54,552 nucleotides of DNA. It comes from Syntrophales bacterium. GTDB taxonomy: Bacteria; Desulfobacterota; Syntrophia; Syntrophales; UBA8958. Shown here piece by piece: positions 1,568 to 15,113 of this stretch. Below the pieces are notes generated by a model. That model did not search any database and was not told where the DNA came from. It was given only the letters and a program-made list of their open reading frames with translations. Each line of letters opens with the position of its first letter. Position 1 is the first letter of the stretch. The position numbers and the translations under genes were made by a program. Where the stretch lies: positions 1 to 54,552 of the forward strand of contig JAOACW010000010.1 in the NCBI GenBank assembly GCA_026417625.1, given 5' to 3'.

Positions 1568-2311
1568 CTATAAAGCCCATTCAATTAACACATCTCCCCA
1601 CATCCCCACCGCATCACCTATTACTACAACGACACCCATAATCCCTTCTATTTTTTTCGCCTCATTCAAAGTCTTTGTTATATCCTTTCTATCCTTAACC
1701 ATGTTACCTAGATATGAAGCAACCGCATCAGCCAAAGCAGCGGACTTAGATATAACACTCACAGCGTCTGCTTTTCCAAAGCTCAGAGAATGTCCAACTG
1801 TCCCAGATGAGGTACAAACCCCCACAGGCATGTGCTCTTTTTTTATCGTTATGTTCAATCTATTGCTTAGAGGTGATTCTCCCGCATAAATACCGACTTT
1901 TGTTTCCCTCTGACAATCTATATATATATCACCACCATTCTCTACAATAACCTCTCTGCTGAACCTCCTCAGTTCTCGACCTACAAATTCTGCTATGGCA
2001 CCTGCAACTGCTGCCATAGGACCCACTGAGGCTTCAATTCCCGCTCTTAGCATAGTTCTCACAATTTCAGGCGCGATAGGGTCGTATGGCAAAGGAGACA
2101 GAGAGGTCAGAAACAACGGCTTTTCCTTTATATACTCTTCTATCTGTCTCCTGTAGAAAAAAATGGCCTCTTGAGCTTCGCTTTTCAGATAGCTCTCAGC
2201 CGCTATCCAAAGATCGGTCTCTTTCACACACGCTTCGAATGTTACAAGGTGGCTGGGTGATAAGTGCCTACGGTATATCCGTTCACGATAATCAGTGGAT
2301 GTGCGTTTCAT
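1568..2311 (-). CDS. UPF0280 family protein (ApbE-related fold)
   Basis: This is a conserved protein of unproven function, about 247 residues. The UPF0280 family is related in fold to ApbE-type flavin transferases and is common in methanogens and Desulfobacterota. Recognisable blocks are ASVGPMAAVAGAIAEFVG (about residues 94-111), VENGGDIYID (about 123-132) and CTSSGTVGHSLSFGKAD (about 166-182). There is no signal peptide, unlike typical ApbE. The ATG at 2311 is preferred over the TTG one codon upstream. The gene overlaps the 3' end of dnaE by 20 bp in another frame, so the two are probably translationally coupled. I would not assign a reaction. Confidence 0.85.
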   Translation of the reverse strand: MKRTSTDYRERIYRRHLSPSHLVTFEACVKETDLWIAAESYLKSEAQEAIFFYRRQIEEYIKEKPLFLTSLSPLPYDPIAPEIVRTMLRAGIEASVGPMAAVAGAIAEFVGRELRRFSREVIVENGGDIYIDCQRETKVGIYAGESPLSNRLNITIKKEHMPVGVCTSSGTVGHSLSFGKADAVSVISKSAALADAVASYLGNMVKDRKDITKTLNEAKKIEGIMGVVVVIGDAVGMWGDVLIEWAL

Positions 2312-5300
2312 CAAATCTCACAACAAGGTTTGAAATCTCTCCTTCAGATAAACAGTTCTTCACATGAGAAACGTCAAAATACAAACTATTACCCAGAAAA
2401 ATGACAATCTCCGTTTCGCCATTCAGAAGATGGAGATATCCGAGATAAACCCCCCCTTCTTTTTCGGAAAGATCCTTAATTTTTTTCAGTATAGCAGTGT
2501 TTACATCTGGAGCGTTAATGTAAAAGTGTACAGCTCCAACGCCTATATTCCTTAAAGCTGAAATTAATGGCATTGCTTCATCCACCACCACATGGGTTGC
2601 TTCTTCCGATACATCAAGGGTTCCTCTAACAAATAAAGGTTCATCGAGATTGAAAAGATGTCGGGATTTTCTATATACCTCCGGAAAAAATATAAGCTCA
2701 ACTGTCCCCTGGAGATCCTCAAAGCTCACATAAGCCATAACCTCCATTTTCCTTGTTGTTATCTCCCTTACATTCGCAATAATACCCACCAGACAAACTT
2801 CCTGTTTATCCTCCATAGTTTGAAGCTGAGAGGTATCGGCGTTCTTAATCAAAGGCAACCATTCTTTAAAACGAAGCAACGGATGGCCAGTAATGTAAAA
2901 ACCCAAAGTTTCCTTCTCGAAAGATAAAAGCTCTCTGTAGTCCCATTCAGGAAGATTTTCAATTTCATACAATGGATTAACCGAAGCACTTTCAGGCTGC
3001 TCATTTAGATCGTCAAAGAAGCTCACCTGTAGACCTTCCCGCGGCTTGTTATGGTTCATGTGCATGATTCTCTCATACGACGCCAGCAGTGAGCGACGAG
3101 TATACCCGAGAGAATCAAATGCCCCGCATTTAATCAAACTTTCCATTACTCTTTTATTTACCCGACGAAAATCCACGCGGGAACAAAAATCAAGGAAAGA
3201 TTCGAACTTTCCGTCACGCTCCCTTGCAGATATAATAGCCTCCACAGCGCTACTACCCACGTTTTTTACCGCTGCCAATCCAAAACGGATACTGTCACCA
3301 GAAATGGTAAAATCGATGTCCGACTCGTTTATATCAGGAGGAAGTACATTTATTCCCATTTCTTTACACTCGTTTATGTGCTTTATCATTTTATTCCTAT
3401 TGTCCTTCTCACTTGACAAAAGAGCTGCCATAAATTCAACTGGATAGTGAGCTTTTAAATAGGCGGTTTGATAAGATATCATGGCATAAGCTGTGCTATG
3501 CGATTTGTTAAATCCATACTCAGCAAACGTTTCCATTTGTTCCCATATTTTTAAAGCCTTGCTCTCAGGTATCCGGTTCCTCTTCGCTCCAGCCAGGAAA
3601 CGAGGCTTCTCTTTTTCCATCTCCTCCGGCTTTTTCTTGCTCATTACCTTTCGCAAAGTGTCAGCTTCAGCCATAGTATAGTTACCTATGGTAACAGCTA
3701 TCTGCATAACCTGCTCTTGATAAACAATTACGCCATACGTCTCCTTTAAAATGTCCTCAAGTTGGGGAACCTCATAGGTTATGGGCATCTTCCCAGATTT
3801 TCTAGCAATGAAATCCGGTACCATTTTCATCGGTCCCGGTCTGTAGAGGGCAATGAGAGCTATAAGATCCTCTATGCAATCCGGTTTCATATTCACAAGA
3901 ATCTCTTTCATTCCTGCACTTTCCAGTTGAAATATGCCATCCGTACTCCCATTCTGGAGAAGTTCGAAAGTTTTTTTATCATTCAGAGGGATCTTATCGA
4001 GATTAAGAACTATCCCCTTATTATTCTTTATGAATTCCAGTGCTTTGTTAATAACTGTCAATGTTTTCAAACCAAGAAAGTCAAATTTCGTAAGTCCTAC
4101 TGCCTGCAGATCGTTCATTGCGTACTGCGTTATAATTTCATTCTTAGAACTTCTAAAAAGGGGAACTTTTTCCACGAGTGGTACATCCGATATTACCACC
4201 CCAGCTGCATGTTTAGATGCATGTCTGTGCAATCCTTCGAGAGCCTTGGAATACTTTATGAGTTTTGCTATTTTTTCACTCTTAACCATTTCTTCACGTA
4301 GACGAGGTTCCGCCTCAATGGCTTCGTCAAGGGTTATATCAATCCTGTTGGGGATCAGTTTCGCTATCCCATCGACTTCACTATAGGGGATGTTCATCGC
4401 CCTGCCCACATCTCTAATCACAGCTCTCGCCTGCATCTTTCCAAATGTTATTATCTGCGCAACATGATCACTGCCGTATTTTTGCGTAACATAATTAATG
4501 ACCTCATCCCTGCCCTCCTGACAGAAATCGGTGTCAATATCAGGCATGCTGATGCGATCAGGATTTAGAAATCTTTCAAAAAACAACCCGTACCTGATGG
4601 GATCAATATTGGTTATACCTAAAGCATACGCTACCAGACTTCCCGCCGCTGAACCCCTCCCCGGGCCTACAGGGATTCCTCTTTTCTTCGCGTAATTTAC
4701 AAAGTCAGCCACTATTAGAAAATACCCTGAAAACCCCATATCTTTTATCATCTCAAGTTCTTCATGTAAGCGTCTTTCGTATTTTTTGCGCAAGTCAGGC
4801 TTCTCTTTAAACTCGGATTTCTCATTAAACAATCTTTCCAGTCCTTCACGGGCAAGTTTCACTAATTGCTCATCTAATGTTAACCCCTCTTCTGATTTAA
4901 ACTTTGGTAACTGGTACCTACCAAACTCTAAACTGAGATTACATCTCTCTGCAATGTAGACAGTGTTTTCCAGAGCCTCTGGACAGTACGAGAAAAGACG
5001 CTTCATTTCGTCGGGAGAACGAAAATAGAATTGATCGGTTTTGAACCTCAAACGATCTTCGTCCTCCACTGTCTTCCCCGTTTGAATGCATAAAAGGATA
5101 TCATGTGCGACAGCATCCTCTATGTTCAAATAATGACAATCATTAGTCGCCACAAGGGGTATCCCCGTTCTACGACTGATTTCAATCAACCCCTCATTAA
5201 CCTTCCTCTGTTCTGGGATACCATTCTCCATCACTTCAAGGAAAAAGCAATCATCTCCGAAAATTTCTCTGTAATATTCGGCACATGTAACAGCTTTTTC

Positions 5301-5765
5301 ATGTTCACCTTTAAGGATTAAATCAGGTATTTCTCCGTGCAAGCACGCGCTTAAAGCGATGAGACCTTCACTGTGTTTCTTTAGAAGCTCTTTGTCCACA
5401 CGGGGTTTATAGTAGAAACCTTCTAAATATGAGGCTGTTGTAAGGCGGATGAGATTTTTATATCCCTGTTGATTTTTAACCAGAACCACGAGGTGTCTCG
5501 ATGTTTCGTTCCCCTGGGGTACGTTCCTGTCAAACCTGCTTCCCGGGGCTACATAGAGCTCGCACCCAATGATAGGCTTCACACCAGCTTTGTAAGCCTG
5601 CTGATAAAAATCAATGGCACCAAAAATATTGCCATGATCTGTGATTGCACAAGCAGGCATTTGATATTCTCTGGCCCTTTGGAAGAGATCTTTAATTCTG
5701 ATCATCCCGTCCAGAAGACTGTACTGTGTATGAACATGAAGATGTACGAAGTCTGCGTGTTTCAT
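2292..5765 (-). CDS. dnaE: DNA polymerase III subunit alpha
   Basis: This is the replicative polymerase catalytic subunit, about 1157 residues, the normal DnaE length. The N-terminal PHP domain starts with HLHVHT (8-13) and continues with TDHGN, GCELY, CLHGEI and NDCHYL. The C-family catalytic centre shows GPGRGSAAGSL and PDIDTDFC with the acidic residues D409 and D411. A tandem HhH region and an OB-fold-like tail follow. The frame stays open 44 codons further upstream into guaB, but family alignment places the start at the ATG at 5765, 5 bp after the guaB stop. It forms an operon with guaB upstream and UPF0280 downstream. The complete set of PHP metal ligands suggests a working exonuclease, unlike E. 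coli DnaE. Confidence 0.97.
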   Translation of the reverse strand: MKHADFVHLHVHTQYSLLDGMIRIKDLFQRAREYQMPACAITDHGNIFGAIDFYQQAYKAGVKPIIGCELYVAPGSRFDRNVPQGNETSRHLVVLVKNQQGYKNLIRLTTASYLEGFYYKPRVDKELLKKHSEGLIALSACLHGEIPDLILKGEHEKAVTCAEYYREIFGDDCFFLEVMENGIPEQRKVNEGLIEISRRTGIPLVATNDCHYLNIEDAVAHDILLCIQTGKTVEDEDRLRFKTDQFYFRSPDEMKRLFSYCPEALENTVYIAERCNLSLEFGRYQLPKFKSEEGLTLDEQLVKLAREGLERLFNEKSEFKEKPDLRKKYERRLHEELEMIKDMGFSGYFLIVADFVNYAKKRGIPVGPGRGSAAGSLVAYALGITNIDPIRYGLFFERFLNPDRISMPDIDTDFCQEGRDEVINYVTQKYGSDHVAQIITFGKMQARAVIRDVGRAMNIPYSEVDGIAKLIPNRIDITLDEAIEAEPRLREEMVKSEKIAKLIKYSKALEGLHRHASKHAAGVVISDVPLVEKVPLFRSSKNEIITQYAMNDLQAVGLTKFDFLGLKTLTVINKALEFIKNNKGIVLNLDKIPLNDKKTFELLQNGSTDGIFQLESAGMKEILVNMKPDCIEDLIALIALYRPGPMKMVPDFIARKSGKMPITYEVPQLEDILKETYGVIVYQEQVMQIAVTIGNYTMAEADTLRKVMSKKKPEEMEKEKPRFLAGAKRNRIPESKALKIWEQMETFAEYGFNKSHSTAYAMISYQTAYLKAHYPVEFMAALLSSEKDNRNKMIKHINECKEMGINVLPPDINESDIDFTISGDSIRFGLAAVKNVGSSAVEAIISARERDGKFESFLDFCSRVDFRRVNKRVMESLIKCGAFDSLGYTRRSLLASYERIMHMNHNKPREGLQVSFFDDLNEQPESASVNPLYEIENLPEWDYRELLSFEKETLGFYITGHPLLRFKEWLPLIKNADTSQLQTMEDKQEVCLVGIIANVREITTRKMEVMAYVSFEDLQGTVELIFFPEVYRKSRHLFNLDEPLFVRGTLDVSEEATHVVVDEAMPLISALRNIGVGAVHFYINAPDVNTAILKKIKDLSEKEGGVYLGYLHLLNGETEIVIFLGNSLYFDVSHVKNCLSEGEISNLVVRFDETHIH

Positions 5766-5770
5766 ATTGA

Positions 5771-7240
<1,470 letters not shown>

Positions 7241-7250
7241 TCAAAGTTTT

Positions 7251-7721
7251 TTACTGATTTTTCTGTTTAAGATAGAAGCGTTGACCCTTTATCTGAAGAT
7301 AAAATCGATTTTCGTCCGCATCAAATTCAATGAAATTCGCTATTTGATAGTAGGCAGCTCGAGTGAACCTGGCCGGAAACTTTCCCGGACAAACCTTACA
7401 ATACAATACATTATCTTCTCCAATCTCCAGAGTTTCTGGATCGAGTGTCTCTATAGTATCGTCAGAGAGCAACACCCTAAATCCCTCAACATACCCATCC
7501 CCTTTGCCAACTTGATACACAGCCTTTACCACATACGCCGTATCCTCCACATCTATGTAACAACGATCATTAGGAAATTCAATTAAGTAGCGACCACACT
7601 CATCCATTTTGAGATGTTTGTAGAATAGGTTCACTATATCTTTCCGAAACATCTCGGCTCCTCTGTAGTACCAAACACCATCTTTATCAATTCTTATATC
7701 ACTTTTTGTAACATCCACCAT
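7251..7721 (-). CDS. DUF1285 family protein
   Basis: This is a conserved protein of unknown function, about 156 residues, soluble and without a signal peptide. The N-terminal segment DGVWYYRGAEMFRKDIV followed by LFYKHL, and the later acidic IDVEDTAYVV, match my recollection of the DUF1285 family. The start is ambiguous. An ATG at 7721 is used here, but a TTG four codons upstream (7733) overlaps the dtd stop and is also possible. It lies between dtd and guaB in the same direction with almost no spacing, so it is probably co-transcribed with them. No function is inferred. Confidence 0.7.
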   Translation of the reverse strand: MVDVTKSDIRIDKDGVWYYRGAEMFRKDIVNLFYKHLKMDECGRYLIEFPNDRCYIDVEDTAYVVKAVYQVGKGDGYVEGFRVLLSDDTIETLDPETLEIGEDNVLYCKVCPGKFPARFTRAAYYQIANFIEFDADENRFYLQIKGQRFYLKQKNQ

Positions 7722-7729
7722 TTTTCCAC

Positions 7730-8182
7730 TCAAAAACTCCTTCTGCTATCCAAAAGGATCGTGACTGGACCGTCGTTCACAACATCTATCTTCATATCTG
7801 CCTGAAACTCACCCGAACCTATCCTCCCTGGCAAACTATTCTCCGCACGTTTCAGAAAGTACTCATAGAGCCTTCGAGCAAGTTCTGGCTCCTCTGCTTT
7901 AATAAAGGATGGGCGTCTTCCCTTACTGCAATCGGCCAGCAATGTGAATTGTGATATAATCATCATTTGGCCATTCATGTCAAGGAGCGAAAGGTTCATT
8001 TTTCCACCTCTGTCTTCGAAGATCCTCAAATTCAAAATCTTCTGCAGTAAATAATCAGCATCAGTTTCTTGATCACCTTTCTCAACACCAAGAAAAACAA
8101 TAACACCCCTTCCTGTCTCGGATATCAAAGATCCGTCCACATGCACACTCACTTTATCAACTCTCTGGATAACCGCCCTCAT
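7730..8182 (-). CDS. dtd: D-aminoacyl-tRNA deacylase
   Basis: Dtd hydrolyses D-aminoacyl-tRNAs (and glycyl-tRNA-Ala), recycling mischarged tRNA in the cytoplasm. At 150 residues it has the family length. The two defining motifs are present: SQFTLLAD in the middle and NDGPVTILLDS near the C-terminus, corresponding to the SQxT and NxGPVT (Gly-cisPro) active-site elements. It is the first gene of a tight group running into DUF1285, guaB, dnaE and UPF0280, and ends with an AGAAGGAG Shine-Dalgarno-like stretch that could serve the next gene. Confidence 0.96.
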   Translation of the reverse strand: MRAVIQRVDKVSVHVDGSLISETGRGVIVFLGVEKGDQETDADYLLQKILNLRIFEDRGGKMNLSLLDMNGQMMIISQFTLLADCSKGRRPSFIKAEEPELARRLYEYFLKRAENSLPGRIGSGEFQADMKIDVVNDGPVTILLDSRRSF

Positions 8183-8259: not shown

Positions 8260-9222
8260 CTATTCAGTCAAGGGATAACCATCAAAGAGGGGATACCGGT
8301 AGTCTACAAGGCAGGTTACCCACACATTTGCCAGTTCGTCTTTCCATATCTCAGGTACAGATTTCTCTACGGTTTCTGTTGAACGCGCGAAAACATCATC
8401 AAACAAAGTTATTTTACCTTTTTCACTCTTTTTTATACCATATTTAAAAATGTTCCTTCTTTGGGGAGAGATCTCCATAATTGTCTCTCTTGTAGCAAAG
8501 ATTTCACTATTGTTCGCCAGATGAGACAGATAGATCACATGGCTCATAATACCTCCACTACAGTTAACATCTGATGGTAAAAAATTTCTTCCATCCAAAG
8601 AAATGTATTTTCCATGGGAAATCGCTATACCAAAAAATATATCATATCCGATTTTTTTTCCCCATTCCTCAAGGATACTCATAATGTTCTGCCTGAGAGC
8701 AAATGCACACCTCAATGTCCTCTCTACATATTCATCACTTGAAAAAAACACGGATAAAAAAGTGTGCATCATATCCTTGATAAACAGACCCCCAAAATTA
8801 GCAACTGTGCTCTCGAAACTTTTTCGCACAGTATTCATAATCGAGACATAACCCTCAGGTAATACCCTACGACAGACTTCATCTCCATTCTGTATCGCTA
8901 AACCGAGCACACAAATGTTTACCCACTCTCCCGCCAAAAAACAAGTCGATGCTTCTTTAGCCTCCCAGGGAGTTATTTTGTTGAATTTTTCCACTATTTT
9001 GTCCATAGTTAAACCTTTTCTTTTAAGGTCCCTAATCTCTTTAATGCGATCAATTACCCAAACGGGAAAATAACCAAGTCTCCTAATCTGACCATGTCCC
9101 TTCACGCATTTCCTAACGTCGGGCACCGGAACCAAACCAAACTTAATGTAATTGTTTAATGTGGACCTAGATATACCCGTAATTGCTAAGACTTCTCTGC
9201 TCGAAATAAAATATCTATCCAT
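8260..9222 (-). CDS. MerR-type HTH regulator with degenerate nucleotidyl-cyclase-like C-terminal domain
   Basis: This is a predicted transcription regulator of about 320 residues. The N-terminus (about 1-70) is a MerR-like winged HTH: SSREVLAITGISRSTLNNY followed by a recognition wing and the helix IDRIKEIRDLKRKGLTMDKI. The C-terminal half (about 125-250) resembles a class III nucleotidyl cyclase homology domain in spacing and in segments such as ERTLRCAFALRQNIM and FGIAISHGKYI. The paired catalytic aspartates are not evident, so it is probably a sensor or dimer domain. The ATG at 9222 (GGTGA 7 bp upstream) is preferred over 9267, which would overlap promoter-like and palindromic DNA. It is divergent from an M16 peptidase gene. 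Confidence 0.72.
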   Translation of the reverse strand: MDRYFISSREVLAITGISRSTLNNYIKFGLVPVPDVRKCVKGHGQIRRLGYFPVWVIDRIKEIRDLKRKGLTMDKIVEKFNKITPWEAKEASTCFLAGEWVNICVLGLAIQNGDEVCRRVLPEGYVSIMNTVRKSFESTVANFGGLFIKDMMHTFLSVFFSSDEYVERTLRCAFALRQNIMSILEEWGKKIGYDIFFGIAISHGKYISLDGRNFLPSDVNCSGGIMSHVIYLSHLANNSEIFATRETIMEISPQRRNIFKYGIKKSEKGKITLFDDVFARSTETVEKSVPEIWKDELANVWVTCLVDYRYPLFDGYPLTE

Positions 9223-9271
9223 AAATTGATCACCCAATTTGATTGTCCAATTAGAGTTTTCAAACATATTT

Positions 9272-9304
9272 TTGATTAAAAATCAATCAATTAGACTGTC
9301 TAAT
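9272..9304. promoter_or_regulatory. tandem palindromes, candidate operators between regulator and peptidase genes
   Basis: Two palindromes lie back to back. TTGATT-AAA-AATCAA (9272-9286) has 6-bp arms, and ATTAGAC-T-GTCTAAT (9290-9304) has perfect 7-bp arms. A further GTCTAAT half-site is at 9368-9374, just after the -10 of the M16 promoter, and a degenerate one (GTCCAAT) is at 9245-9251. On the minus strand, TTGATT (9290-9285) and TATGTT (9268-9263), 16 bp apart, could be the regulator's own promoter. The arrangement suggests autoregulation and control of the divergent genes, but this is inference. Confidence 0.5.
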
Positions 9305-9334
9305 CTAAGGTAATAGATGAAGAAAAAATAATTC

Positions 9335-9363
9335 TTGCTGAAGATTTGTTTCTTGTATATAAT
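9335..9363 (+). promoter_or_regulatory. sigma70-type promoter of the M16 peptidase run
   Basis: TTGCTG (9335-9340) and a perfect TATAAT (9358-9363) are separated by 17 bp, 30 bp before the first M16 start codon. A GTCTAAT half-site at 9368-9374 would lie across the transcription start, in a position suited to repression. Confidence 0.6.
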
Positions 9364-9392
9364 ATGAGTCTAATTTTCTGGATTAACCATTA

Positions 9393-10919
9393 ATGATTTC
9401 TGCCGCCCAGTTAATGACCCATTCCCGAACTGTTATAGTACTTCTTTTTTTACTATTTTTCTTACCCTCACACTCCTATGGAAATGACAGATACACGTTA
9501 AAACTTTTAGAAAACGTTGAGGTCTTCACTTTGAAGAATGGTATAAAAGTCATTCTTCTGGAACGGAATACATCTCCAACAATCTCCTTCTACATCAGGT
9601 TCAAAGCTGGAGCGGCAAACGACCCTGCGGGAAAATCAGGAATGGCGCATCTCCTTGAACACATGTTGTTCAAAGGTACAAAAAGTATAGGTACTGTAAA
9701 TTATAAAAGGGAAAGAGAGGTTCTTAAGAAAATATATAAAGTTGGGAGCGCTATCGATCGAGAACGCATGAAGGGTGAGCTGGCAGACAAAGACAAAATA
9801 GTCCTATTGCAAAGAAAACTTGAAAAATTGAATCAAAGGCACAGGAAACTCTACCGTTCAAACGAAATCGACCGAATATACACGGAGAATGGAGCCGAGC
9901 ATTACAATGCAACCACAGGCCAGGACCTCATCACTGTTCATGTCAGTCTCCCCTCTAATCGTATGGAGGTATGGGCGCGTATAGAGTCCGATCGTATGTT
10001 CAACACTGTTTTCAGAGAATTTTACCAAGAAAGGAACGTCATACTCGAGGAACGCAAACAAAGAATAGAATCACGACCAGAAGGCAAATTGATGGAAAAA
10101 TTCTACGCAGAAGCTTTCACTGTCCACCCATACAATAGGCCGATCATAGGCTACCAAAATGAAGTTGCATTCATTACACCCCACGATCTTCAAAACTTCT
10201 ACAGAGAAACCTTATCTCCAGAGAAAACGATAATCACTGTCGTAGGAAATTTCAAATCATGGGAAGCTAAAAAAATAATACACAAATACTTTGGAAACCT
10301 AAAGACGAGTTCAGTAGTGGAAAAATCAGTAATTCTGGAACCTCCCCAGAAGAGTGAGAGGAAGTTTTGCCTGAATAAAATAGATGCAAAACCCCTTCTC
10401 GTCATAGGTTATCACAAACCAAACCCACCTCACGATGATGATTGTGTTTTTGATGTAATATCGACCATACTTTCAAGGGGAAGGTCTAGTCGGTTCTTTC
10501 AGGAAATCGTAGAGAAGAGAAATCTCGCAGAATCGGTAATAGCCATAAACGGCCTGCCAGGAGAGAGATATCCAAACTTATTTGTCATCTACGCCCAACC
10601 GCGAAGTTCCACAAAAATAGATGATCTCGAGAATGCTATATACTCCATTCTAGAAGATTTAAAAAACGGAAAAATCTCACAGGAGGAACTCAACAAAGCA
10701 AAAAATTATCTCCGGGTCGATGTCCTCCGATCACAAACAACAAATGAGGAAATTGCTGACATGCTCTCGTATTATGAGGCTCAAGTAGGCGATTTCAGGT
10801 ACATCGAAAGATACCTACGTAGACTCGATTCAATTACACTAGAGGATTTGAGACGAGTTGCCCATGCTTATCTAAAGCGAGATAACAGAACAGTGGGGAT
10901 GATCGCACAACGTAACTGA
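9393..10919 (+). CDS. M16 family zinc metallopeptidase, catalytic subunit (exported)
   Basis: This is an insulinase/pitrilysin-type protease of 508 residues with a hydrophobic signal-like segment at about 14-28, so it is probably periplasmic or membrane-attached. The inverted zinc motif HLLEH is at residues 86-90, and a probable third ligand is E198 in RIESDRM. Between them is a charged, coiled-coil-like insert (about 104-165) that many M16 proteins lack. The second M16 domain follows from about residue 240. An M16 homologue without the zinc motif lies 11 bp downstream, so the two likely form an active/inactive heterodimer. The start has weak Shine-Dalgarno support; the ATG at 9414 is an alternative. 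Confidence 0.92.
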   Translation: MISAAQLMTHSRTVIVLLFLLFFLPSHSYGNDRYTLKLLENVEVFTLKNGIKVILLERNTSPTISFYIRFKAGAANDPAGKSGMAHLLEHMLFKGTKSIGTVNYKREREVLKKIYKVGSAIDRERMKGELADKDKIVLLQRKLEKLNQRHRKLYRSNEIDRIYTENGAEHYNATTGQDLITVHVSLPSNRMEVWARIESDRMFNTVFREFYQERNVILEERKQRIESRPEGKLMEKFYAEAFTVHPYNRPIIGYQNEVAFITPHDLQNFYRETLSPEKTIITVVGNFKSWEAKKIIHKYFGNLKTSSVVEKSVILEPPQKSERKFCLNKIDAKPLLVIGYHKPNPPHDDDCVFDVISTILSRGRSSRFFQEIVEKRNLAESVIAINGLPGERYPNLFVIYAQPRSSTKIDDLENAIYSILEDLKNGKISQEELNKAKNYLRVDVLRSQTTNEEIADMLSYYEAQVGDFRYIERYLRRLDSITLEDLRRVAHAYLKRDNRTVGMIAQRN

Positions 10920-10930
10920 AGAAAATCATT

Positions 10931-12361
10931 ATGACAACACGCAAGATCTTATTGATGACATTTGTGTCTGTTCTCTTCTCCCTTATTGGTACTACAGAAA
11001 CCTTCCCTTGGATGGAACAGTACCGCCATCCAGACACGTTCTCCTTCAAACCTTTGAATTTCGTCCCCCCTAAGCCACACAGGTTCGTTCTAAAAAATGG
11101 TCTTACTATTTTTGTTATGGAAGATCACACCGTACCTCTCGTAGATATTCAGATTACCATAGGTGCAGGTTCATATTTTGAGCCAATCGGCAAAGAGGGT
11201 CTAGCCGAACTTACAGCGGAGGCGATAAAAACTGGGGGAACCAAAACGTTACCTCCACGCTCAGTAGACGAATTTCTCGATTTCACTGGAAGTACTCTTA
11301 AAACATCTGTGTCATATGAGATGGTAACATTTTCACTGAACTGTCTCCGCGAGGAATGGAAAAAGGGGATTCAGTTACTCTATGATATGATGAGTGCCCC
11401 CCTTATGGATGAAACACGTATTAAACTATCAAAAGAACTAATGATAGAAGATTTACTGCGTTTAAAGGATGATCCCTGGAGATTATCGTTCCGAGAATTC
11501 ACTTGTGCACTATACGGATCAGACCCCAGGGGCAGAAAATCAACCCCAGAATCTATCAAAAACATAACGAGGGATGATCTTCTCAGTTTTCATCAGGAGT
11601 ATTTCTATCCTGAAAACATGATCATTGCCATAACAGGTGATGTGACTGTATCAGAAGTCGCTACCGAATGTGAACGTCTTTTTGGTGGTCTAAAGTTGAC
11701 AGGAAAGAGCAGAAAAGTGACTCCTCCCCCAGAAAAGACAAAACCTGGCATTTACTATGTAATAAAAGAGCTACCTCAATCAATCATAATAGCCGGTCAT
11801 ATTGCACCCGGCAAAAGTGATTCCTATTACTTCCCATTTAAGATACTCGACTTAATAGTTGGAAGTGGAGGTTTCACATCAAAGCTCACCCAAGAAATAA
11901 GAACGAGCAAAGGACTGGCTTATTCTGCTGGAAGCTTCTATAAAACCCGAGCTCATCACGGTGTATTCGCAGTATATGGCGCCACATCAAATGATAACAC
12001 AGTAAAGGTGTTGCGCCGTATTATAGACATTCTTTCAGCAATAAAAGCAGGGCAGATCTCAAAGGTCGAAGTAGAAAAAACAAAAAAAACTTTTTTAAAC
12101 AGATTTATTTTCGAGTTTCAGACTCCGAACCAGATCACTTACAGAGAATTAGTGCGAGAATTTTATGGACTTCCCGAAGATTTTTATAAAGTGTATCCCC
12201 TCCGCATTGAATCGCTGAATTTAAACGACATTATAAAAACAGCACAAGTTACAATAAAACCCACTGAATTAACAATACTCGTATTGGGTCCTGAAAGATA
12301 CCTAAAACACCTCAAGGAGATTTTTAAAAACACATATGAATGCAGGGTTGTAGTACCTTGA
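10931..12361 (+). CDS. M16 family protein, non-catalytic partner
   Basis: This 476-residue M16-fold protein has an N-terminal hydrophobic segment (about 5-22) suggesting export. At the position of the zinc motif it has GLAELTAEA (from residue 90), so the HxxEH ligands are missing and it cannot be the catalytic chain. The C-terminal half keeps the substrate-binding signature RTSKGLAYSAGSFY. The pairing with the catalytic M16 gene immediately upstream mirrors the alpha/beta organisation of mitochondrial processing peptidase and many bacterial M16B pairs. It is followed 32 bp later by an M20 peptidase. Confidence 0.9.
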   Translation: MTTRKILLMTFVSVLFSLIGTTETFPWMEQYRHPDTFSFKPLNFVPPKPHRFVLKNGLTIFVMEDHTVPLVDIQITIGAGSYFEPIGKEGLAELTAEAIKTGGTKTLPPRSVDEFLDFTGSTLKTSVSYEMVTFSLNCLREEWKKGIQLLYDMMSAPLMDETRIKLSKELMIEDLLRLKDDPWRLSFREFTCALYGSDPRGRKSTPESIKNITRDDLLSFHQEYFYPENMIIAITGDVTVSEVATECERLFGGLKLTGKSRKVTPPPEKTKPGIYYVIKELPQSIIIAGHIAPGKSDSYYFPFKILDLIVGSGGFTSKLTQEIRTSKGLAYSAGSFYKTRAHHGVFAVYGATSNDNTVKVLRRIIDILSAIKAGQISKVEVEKTKKTFLNRFIFEFQTPNQITYRELVREFYGLPEDFYKVYPLRIESLNLNDIIKTAQVTIKPTELTILVLGPERYLKHLKEIFKNTYECRVVVP

Positions 12362-12393
12362 CAAACTGAACAAAAAGAGGGTAAAAGCAAAAC

Positions 12394-13638
12394 ATGTTTG
12401 ATTACAATGTGTTCCGTAATTTATCAGAAAAAATTGAATCATACAGGAATGAAATGATCGACCTCCAAATTGCTTTGACTGCTATACCGGCTATTTCACC
12501 GGATAACGGCGGTGAGGGGGAGTATGAAAGGGGAAGGTTCATAAAACATATACTCGATACTATCCCCTTTGATCAGTGTTTTGAGATAAATGCCCCCGAT
12601 CCCAGAGCAAAAGGGGGGTACCGTCCCAACATAATCGTGCGGCATAACGGCAGAAACAAAAGAACAGTATGGATTATAACTCACATGGACGTAGTTCCTC
12701 CTGGAAACCTAGATCTTTGGAAAACTGACCCTTTCAGAGCTGTTATTCAGGATGGAAAAATCTATGGTCGGGGCGTGGAGGATAATCAGCAGGACCTCAT
12801 ATCTTCACTTTTTGCAGCTCGGGTATGCTGTGAAGAAAAAGTGACTACACCTAACGCTGTGGGTCTTATTTTTGTCTCAGATGAGGAAACGAGAAGTCTG
12901 TATGGACTGGACTACGTATTGATTAATGAGAAAAATCCTATTCAGAGTGATGATATAATATTAGTGCCCGATGCAGGAAACAGCGATGGCACACTAATAG
13001 AGGTCGCCGAAAAAAGTATCCTATGGCTGCGTATTCATACCAGTGGAAAACAGTGTCATGGGAGCACTCCCCATCAAGGAAAGAATGCACATTTGGCAGC
13101 CTCACATCTTATTGTGCGTCTTCACAATGAACTCCATAAGTGTTTTGATGAAATTAACACCCTTTTTGATCCACCGGCGAGTACGTTCGAGCCCACAAAA
13201 AAAGAAGCCAATGTACCAAACGTGAATACAATTCCTGGCGATGACGTGTTTTACATGGACTGTCGGATACTACCCCAGTACGACCTGAAAATGGTTCTGG
13301 CGAAAATAAAAGAGGTCGCAAAAGAAATCGAAACGATCTTCGGAGTCTCAATTGAGGTAGAACCAATCCAGGAACTTCAATCCCCACCACCAACTTCTAC
13401 CGATGCGCCAGTGGTAAAAGCCTTACAAAAGGCGATCCGAGAGGTGTACTCTGTTGAAGCCAAACCGCGAGGTATAGGTGCAGGAACAGTGGCTGCGTAC
13501 TTGAGGAAAAGAGAATTTCCCGTAGCTGTGTGGTCCCGCACTGAGCATACCGCTCACCAACCAAATGAGTTTTGTTTAATTGACAATATGGTAGGAAATG
13601 CAAAGGTTTTTCTCCATTTATTCCTTCAGGATTATTAG
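12394..13638 (+). CDS. M20 family metallopeptidase (ArgE/DapE-like)
   Basis: This is a cytoplasmic zinc-dependent amidohydrolase or exopeptidase of 414 residues. Metal-binding elements appear in order: THMDVVPPG (first His/Asp), [10 protein letters not shown], the Glu pair in [16 protein letters not shown], and the C-terminal HTAHQPNE. The dimerisation domain starts near [20 protein letters not shown]. The sequence fits the broad ArgE/DapE/carboxypeptidase group, and I cannot separate acetylornithine deacetylase, succinyl-DAP desuccinylase and a peptidase from sequence alone. Its position after two M16 genes favours a peptide-processing role over arginine or lysine synthesis, whose operon is elsewhere in the window. 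Confidence 0.88.
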
Positions 13639-13670
13639 AAAGGAGGGAGACTGTTACTAAAAAAGGAACT

Positions 13671-14645
13671 ATGTGTGTAGAAAAGATTGTTTTCTCTGAC
13701 CACACATTACTCAAAGTTCTATACGGTGAACACGACAAAAATCTACGTCTTATTGAAAAGCTAGATGGCGTAAGTATTGGGGTAAAAGGCAACGTTCTAT
13801 CCATAAGTGGTGACCTCCCTTCTGTAAAACTCGCCAAAAATCTCCTCATGCAACTTTATCATATAGTTTCCAGGGGTTACCCTCTTTTTCATCAGGACGT
13901 GGATTTTGCACACCGGATGCTGGCTGAAAACAGCGAGGTGAACCTTGAGCAGATATTTCTAGATAAGGTCTTTATCTCATCGAAAAAACGAATAATTACA
14001 CCCAAAAGTTTAGCACAGAAAGAGTACATTGAAGCCATACGAACCTGCGATATGGTTTTCGGAATAGGGCCAGCTGGCACTGGAAAAACTTATCTAGCTA
14101 TGGCCATGGCCGTTTCCTATCTCATGGATAAAAAAGTGGACAGGATCGTGCTCGCAAGACCTGCAGTTGAAGCGGGCGAAAAACTTGGGTTCCTTCCAGG
14201 TGACTTAGCGGAAAAGGTAAATCCATACTTGAGACCCCTTTATGATGCCCTGTACGATATGATTGACTTTGACAAGGCAACCTCTCTAATAACCAGAGGA
14301 GTTATAGAGGTAGCACCCCTTGCTTTTATGAGAGGACGAACCCTCAATGATGCTTTCGTTATACTAGACGAGGCTCAGAACACGACGTCTGAACAGATGA
14401 AAATGTTTCTGACACGCCTCGGTTTCGGATCCAAAGCTGTGATTACTGGAGATGTGACTCAGATAGATCTGCCAGTGGAGAAACAGTCAGGGCTTATAGA
14501 GGCGGAACAAATATTAAAGAACACTAAGGGGATACGCTTCGTGTACTTCACAGAGGTCGATGTAGTTCGTCATCCTTTAGTACAGGAAATAATAAAAGCT
14601 TATAACAACCTTGATAAACGGCGACGTAAACGCGACGAGGGTTAA
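13671..14645 (+). CDS. ybeZ: PhoH family ATPase (YbeZ)
   Basis: This is a PhoH-like P-loop ATPase/helicase-type protein of 324 residues, linked to rRNA maturation through its partner YbeY. The N-terminal 80 residues look like the KH-like domain common in this family. The Walker A is [11 protein letters not shown] and the Walker B is VILDEAQNT, followed by [14 protein letters not shown]. The ybeY gene begins 3 bp after its stop, the classic pairing. The HDIG-domain gene often found between phoH and ybeY in related bacteria is absent here. Confidence 0.95.
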
Positions 14646-14648
14646 TAT

Positions 14649-15113
14649 TTGGGGTCAAAAAACAATATTTTTATAGCCAATTATCAACGGAAATTCAAGC
14701 TTAACAGGCGCAAGATCCTAAAAATCATCGACCAAATCCTCAATCTACTCCAGATCAGAAATAGCGAAATAAGTGTGCTTTTCCTTGATGACGAAAAAAT
14801 AAGAGAGTTGAACAGATCATTCCTAGGTCGTGATCGACCCACAAACGTTATGGCTTTTCCTCAAAAGGAGGGCGAATCGCCGGAGACACAGTACAATCTA
14901 CTGGGCGACGTGGTCATATCCGTGGAAACGGCATCAAGAGAAGCCCATGAAGCAGAGATACCTCTTGAAGACGAGTTAACATATCTGCTGATACACGGTA
15001 TTCTACATCTTCTCGGTTATGATCACGAAAGTGGAGATGAAAAAAACGCCAAATTGATGAAGGACAAAGAATTTGAACTTTTCTATATGATCAAGGGATA
15101 CGAACTGGAATAA
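14649..15113 (+). CDS. ybeY: endoribonuclease YbeY, rRNA maturation factor
   Basis: YbeY is a zinc-dependent endoribonuclease acting in 16S rRNA 3'-end maturation and ribosome quality control. The 154-residue product carries the signature HGILHLLGYDHESGDE with the three metal-binding histidines, and the earlier LNRSFLGRDRPTNVMAFP block. The start is a TTG at 14649, supported by GAGGG 7 bp upstream and by the short gap to the phoH stop. No good ATG lies nearby. Confidence 0.95.
   Translation: MGSKNNIFIANYQRKFKLNRRKILKIIDQILNLLQIRNSEISVLFLDDEKIRELNRSFLGRDRPTNVMAFPQKEGESPETQYNLLGDVVISVETASREAHEAEIPLEDELTYLLIHGILHLLGYDHESGDEKNAKLMKDKEFELFYMIKGYELE

Follow-up and report, generated by a model that had tools for sequence, protein, structure and literature searches.

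A reduced MerR-HTH/cyclase-like gene of a Syntrophales bacterium and its conserved, predicted self-directed operator

The mycobacterial Mclx proteins carry a class III cyclase domain together with a LuxR-type HTH (Mclx1 is Rv0386); two of these three LuxR-cyclase proteins, Mclx2 and Mclx3, no longer have their catalytic residues, and a role as transcription regulators was proposed for them (PMC4452763). The protein described here is encoded in a window of 54,552 nucleotides, the whole stretch of Syntrophales DNA that was analysed, and likewise joins a cyclase domain to a DNA-binding HTH. Its family differs from Mclx in that the HTH is N-terminal and MerR-type rather than LuxR-type (Pfam returned no LuxR HTH match in the window protein), in the PAS-like middle domain of the intact members, in a conserved self-directed operator and in its occurrence in other phyla. 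With the MerR family it shares the N-terminal winged HTH, a near-palindromic operator and, as predicted here, autoregulation. Unlike that family, it has a cyclase fold as effector domain. A long dimerisation helix did not appear in the model of the window protein, a monomer model with low confidence at residues 84-94. Furthermore, MerR-family operators lie in a 19-20 bp spacer, whereas those of the present relatives flank the -35 element or overlap the -10, with a -35 to -10-like arm spacing of 14-17 bp (as read in the promoters of relatives). The fold is that of the class III cyclases Cya2, CyaB and CyaC (Z about 19-20); unlike these, it comes with a DNA-binding head, and the window member is without five of the six catalytic residues. 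The middle domain of relatives bears a weak likeness to the PAS-like ligand-binding domain of MmyB-like (MltR) proteins (PF17765; PMC3406030); the window protein lacks this domain. Among the open-access papers searched, none was found to describe a MerR-HTH/cyclase family or its operator.

The features of the locus are collected in Table 1. The first in-frame ATG of the regulator, at 9267, would give an ORF of 335 aa (8260-9267) and has no Shine-Dalgarno sequence. The product from the ATG at 9222 begins MDRYFISSREV..., in agreement with the N-termini of relatives, in which the HTH starts about 10 aa past the start codon in the alignment. Because of the Shine-Dalgarno sequence GGGTGATC and this comparison with relatives, translation likely starts at 9222 rather than at 9267.

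Table 1. Features of the regulator locus (positions in the window;., no strand)
Feature	Position	Strand	Basis or remark
Regulator gene	8260..9222	-	ORF; Shine-Dalgarno; alignment with relatives; 320 aa from likely start 9222
MerR-type winged HTH	8983..9204	-	Pfam MerR_1, E 2.6e-5
Class III cyclase-like domain without catalytic residues	8284..8943	-	AlphaFold2; structure comparison; catalytic columns
Shine-Dalgarno GGGTGATC	9228-9235	-	Read from sequence; serves start 9222
Second, weaker operator-like site	9235..9253	.	9.4 bits; in the leader given start 9222
TTGATT-AAA-AATCAA inverted repeat	9272..9286	.	In 1/91 family upstreams (window only)
Main operator (predicted)	9288..9306	.	20.3 bits; core palindrome ATTAGACTGTCTAAT at 9290-9304
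Possible M16-run promoter, TTGCTG-17 bp-TATAAT	9335..9363	+	Read by eye
GTCTAAT half-site	9368..9374	+	7-mer occurs 6 times in window
Divergent run M16, M16, M20, PhoH, YbeY	9393..15113	+	ORFs, domain matches
Dtd	7730-8182	-	Downstream of regulator
DUF1285	7251-7733	-	Downstream of regulator
GuaB	5771-7231	-	Named from sequence and synteny
DnaE	2292-5897	-	Named from sequence and synteny

MerR_1 (PF13411) was the sole Pfam domain above its curated cut-off in the regulator (24.7 bits, cut-off 21.6). The HTH part showed 38-56% identity to order-level relatives and was far better preserved than the cyclase part, and its residues SR-T-NNYI were conserved. To the C-terminal domain the sequence-only reading had assigned a likeness to cyclases, to be checked by structure prediction. 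An AlphaFold2 monomer model built with 49 relatives (mean pLDDT 87) superposed over residues 94-313 on the class III cyclases Cya2 and CyaB with a Z of 20.6 (against 2w01, Z 20.6 over 188 residues with an rmsd of 3.1; against 3r5g, Z 20.6), and Foldseek matched it to class III cyclases with an E of about 1e-9. The input alignment included intact cyclases and may thus favour a cyclase fold; the sequence profiles agreed with the fold. A class III cyclase fold was hence confirmed at the level of the model. Only two short helices (73-81 and 85-91) followed the HTH. Because the catalytic columns Asp-Lys-Asp-Thr-Asn-Arg read A-K-H-N-S-Y in the window protein, class III catalysis as known is, judged from these columns and on present knowledge, ruled out for it; the two metal aspartates are absent, as are the Asn and Arg of the transition state, and the substrate-pocket Lys is present. 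Pfam, the model and the catalytic columns agree with the earlier description of a MerR-type HTH joined to a cyclase-like domain without evident catalytic aspartates.

A search across 100 relatives gave matches in 21 genomes, and a scan of GTDB representatives with the family alignment gave 271 relatives, the best 80 of which belonged for the most part to Desulfobacterota with related 'deltaproteobacterial' MAGs and to Beta-, Alpha- and Gammaproteobacteria. The members mostly have 500-580 aa (about 530), arranged as HTH, PAS-like middle domain and class III cyclase. Guanylate_cyc was matched in all 41 full-length relatives and MerR_1 in 38 of them (at E 0.1); PF17765 (MLTR_LBD) was matched weakly in seven (best E 6.4e-5), and the middle domain was modelled with a strand-helix-strand arrangement. 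The window protein carries both parts of the family signature, an SR(A/S)TLNNYIK HTH and a TTAKACWGTMTAA operator upstream. It is very divergent (end branch of 7.28 in the family tree); no relatives were returned when it was the sole query in a scan of genome contigs, and no close relative for measuring selection on it was found. Elsewhere, intact members were found beside PAS-HD-GYP, cNMP-binding-EAL, PAS-GGDEF-EAL and GAF-cyclase genes (observed at L094:5140-6456, L126:8575-10350, L085:8777-9892 and L076:1598-4198), as expected of a second-messenger enzyme.

In intact relatives the catalytic set is Asp-Lys-Asp-(Thr/Ala/Val)-Asn-Arg. After removal of duplicates and fragments, Asp-Lys-Asp-Asn-Arg was kept in 78 of the 81 members that have the middle domain and in none of the nine that lack it, the window protein being among the nine (Fisher 3e-10, uncorrected for phylogeny). 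When domain loss and catalytic loss were compared in independent pairs, all pointed in one direction, with just 3-6 pairs, too few for significance. The window protein, L036, L043, L044 and others form long branches in the family tree, which makes it uncertain where they belong and how many losses occurred independently. A single locus, between the divergent run and dtd-guaB-dnaE, holds intact forms (L040, L042, L046, L065), eroded forms (L036, L045, L049, L050, L052, L054 and the window) and an HTH-only form (L044, in which the HTH and a stub of the cyclase domain are followed by dtd). Because these forms share one locus, the series was read as reduction in situ; the guaB-linked members cluster in the tree, a grouping not demonstrated as one clade. 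The operator was kept in all nine members without the middle domain (best site at least 16 bits), and two sites in L044 score 21.7 and 13.3 bits. That the decay came from a loss of cyclase signalling was rejected, since four further Guanylate_cyc loci are present in the home genome. Also in this genome, two class III cyclase domains lie side by side at G000:C5:20892-25114, in reading frames of about 770 codons.

The operator was visible in plain k-mer counts over 96 upstream regions: ACTGTCTAA occurred in 53 of them, whereas shuffled sequences gave 0, and 50 contained ACTGTATAA. With the palindromic matrix TATTTAKACWGTMTAAATA and a threshold of 8 bits, a site was found in 88 of 91 non-identical family upstreams against 1.5% of Markov-shuffled ones, and the genes bearing it belong to Desulfobacterota and to Beta-, Alpha- and Gammaproteobacteria. 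The motif was refined on the very upstreams where it was counted; the k-mer counts and a leave-out test are independent of that refinement, the main operator scoring 20.1 bits with a matrix that excluded the window and 20.0 bits with one from proteobacterial loci only. Its score was reached by none of 2.18 million shuffled positions in 40 shuffled windows. The proposal that the ATTAGACTGTCTAAT palindrome is a regulatory site, conserved upstream of orthologues, was thereby upheld. A genome-wide search, also proposed in that reading, returned ATTAGACTGTCTAAT without mismatch only at the regulator in the 1.79 Mb home genome, and TTADACWGTHTAA likewise occurred once, at the regulator; with a single perfect site, a wider regulon in this genome was rejected.

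The link between motif and gene was nearly exclusive. The 1.3 Mb of loci contained 199 strong sites, of which 188 stood in front of a family gene. Across 20 genomes with the gene, 21 of 26 sites were at the gene by hand count (three of the 21 inside the coding region), and the other five were fewer than the 17 of a reversed-pattern control; 20 genomes without a detected copy gave 14 sites against a control of 21, which is background. In three relatives a strong operator-like palindrome of 19-22 bits lies about 200 bp inside the coding region of the regulator (L046:9180-9198, L047:9385-9403 and L052:9055-9073), over codons for I-R-L-Y-K or similar; these may be internal operators or a coincidence. 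In Desulfobulbaceae-like genomes the regulator is flanked by CofD-like or PAS-HD-GYP genes, and operator sites lie in front of these too (L080:4291, L077:2110, L090:8564), which makes them possible second local targets.

Family members mostly have 2-3 copies of the operator (full-length members on average about 2.5), and the window has one strong site only. In 40 loci TTGACW follows a palindrome centre by 12-16 bp, and 34 loci have a further palindrome whose right arm lies 14-17 bp past TTGACW, coinciding with the -10 position; in relatives, as read from their promoter sequences, this layout is that of an autorepressor. Because the operator was equally present with a divergent and with a co-directional upstream neighbour (39 of 40 in each case), its target is most likely the family gene itself. 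In the window, a consensus scan found no good sigma-70 promoter for the regulator at the place expected from the operator, so the case for repression via an overlapped promoter is weaker for the window than for its relatives.

The remaining elements of the intergenic DNA fared less well. The TTGATT-AAA-AATCAA palindrome is present as described and was rejected as an operator on account of its lack of conservation, and the extra GTCTAAT is there too, at a chance level of occurrence. The strong M16 promoter of the sequence-only reading can be made out by eye, and the consensus scan did not return it; the main palindrome does not sit on this promoter, and about 73 bp separate it from the likely M16 start point downstream. 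The divergent run, which is continued by a MATE gene, was present as claimed. Its M16 pair was considered as YfmF/YfmH and rejected, with 51-73 bits against NCBIfam equivalog cut-offs of 250-285.

Taken together, we consider it probable that the gene belongs, in reduced form, to a widespread and uncharacterised family of DNA-binding cyclases that regulate their own genes, and that after losing sensing and catalysis it survives as a local autoregulator. In the simplest model, an intact member would be a sensor cyclase repressing its own gene, since binding to operators that flank the -35 or overlap the -10 should repress the family gene itself. The window lineage would have lost the sensory domain and catalysis and kept the HTH and the operator. 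Its protein most likely binds the main operator, and weakly the second site, as a dimer, with the dead cyclase fold now serving as a dimerisation or allosteric scaffold; it would thus limit its own transcription, repression being the only part left of the family model. Effects on the neighbours (dtd-DUF1285-guaB-dnaE downstream, the M16 run upstream), if any, would be local.

It is possible, if somewhat doubtful, that the reduced protein was instead kept because it controls the flanking operons, either the M16 run, as the sequence-only reading had it, or dtd-DUF1285-guaB-dnaE or both. The palindrome has outlasted the enzyme, and a regulated output of some kind should therefore be of importance; the main operator sits in the 170-bp intergenic region common to the regulator and the M16 run, dtd begins after a gap of 77 bp, and both flanks recur. 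In Syntrophales-like relatives the gene stands ahead of dtd, DUF1285, guaB and dnaE, and a similar divergent order was seen in L046, L052 and L055 and partly in L039 and L053. However, the opposite run in these relatives is usually led by a radical SAM gene, followed by M16, M16, M20, phoH and ybeY, and where the divergent M16 operon is kept, other genes, usually this B12-binding radical SAM, separate M16 from the regulator. As the home genome's B12-binding radical SAM gene sits on another contig (G000:C5:117818-119140; L162, L163), the M16-regulator adjacency is probably recent and peculiar to the home genome, not a family trait; no strong operator was found near the relocated gene, the best score in the surrounding 19 kb being about 8 bits. 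The operator goes with the gene irrespective of what lies next to it, and there is no overlap between it and the likely M16 promoter. The switch for peptide export or processing suggested in the sequence-only reading is therefore not supported.

A dead cyclase domain that still binds a (cyclic) nucleotide without turnover, and so controls DNA binding, appears unlikely. The fold and the substrate-pocket Lys are kept, the proposal for Mclx2 and Mclx3 is a precedent (PMC4452763), and the other Guanylate_cyc loci of the home genome fit such a role, but neither metal aspartate remains, nor does the transition-state Asn or Arg, and the degenerate relatives have no set of pocket residues in common. 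With the middle sensor-like domain gone and the nucleotide site destroyed, the ligand sensing suggested earlier is doubtful. Least probable of all would be a pseudogene in the making after catalytic loss, with the HTH and the operator as leftovers. The very long branch, the lost domain and catalytic residues, the truncation of L044 and the many relatives of the order in which no copy was detected would suit decay; against it, the reading frame is uninterrupted, the fold is confident, the HTH has been preserved far better than the cyclase part, and the operator has been retained in the nine loci without the middle domain and in L044.

For the family as a whole, we tentatively suggest, at a little less than even confidence, that self-repressing DNA-binding cyclases (adenylyl or guanylyl), acting through one dedicated operator, were repeatedly reduced at one locus, from enzyme-regulator to dead cyclase to bare HTH. 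An unstudied family in several bacterial classes is here tied to a precise, testable predicted DNA operator, which points to a direct coupling of second-messenger enzymes to the control of their own genes. The intact members beside c-di-GMP and cyclic-nucleotide genes suggest a second-messenger circuit not found in the searchable literature. With such a graded series at a single locus, experiments can address what role the DNA-binding half plays after the enzyme has been lost.
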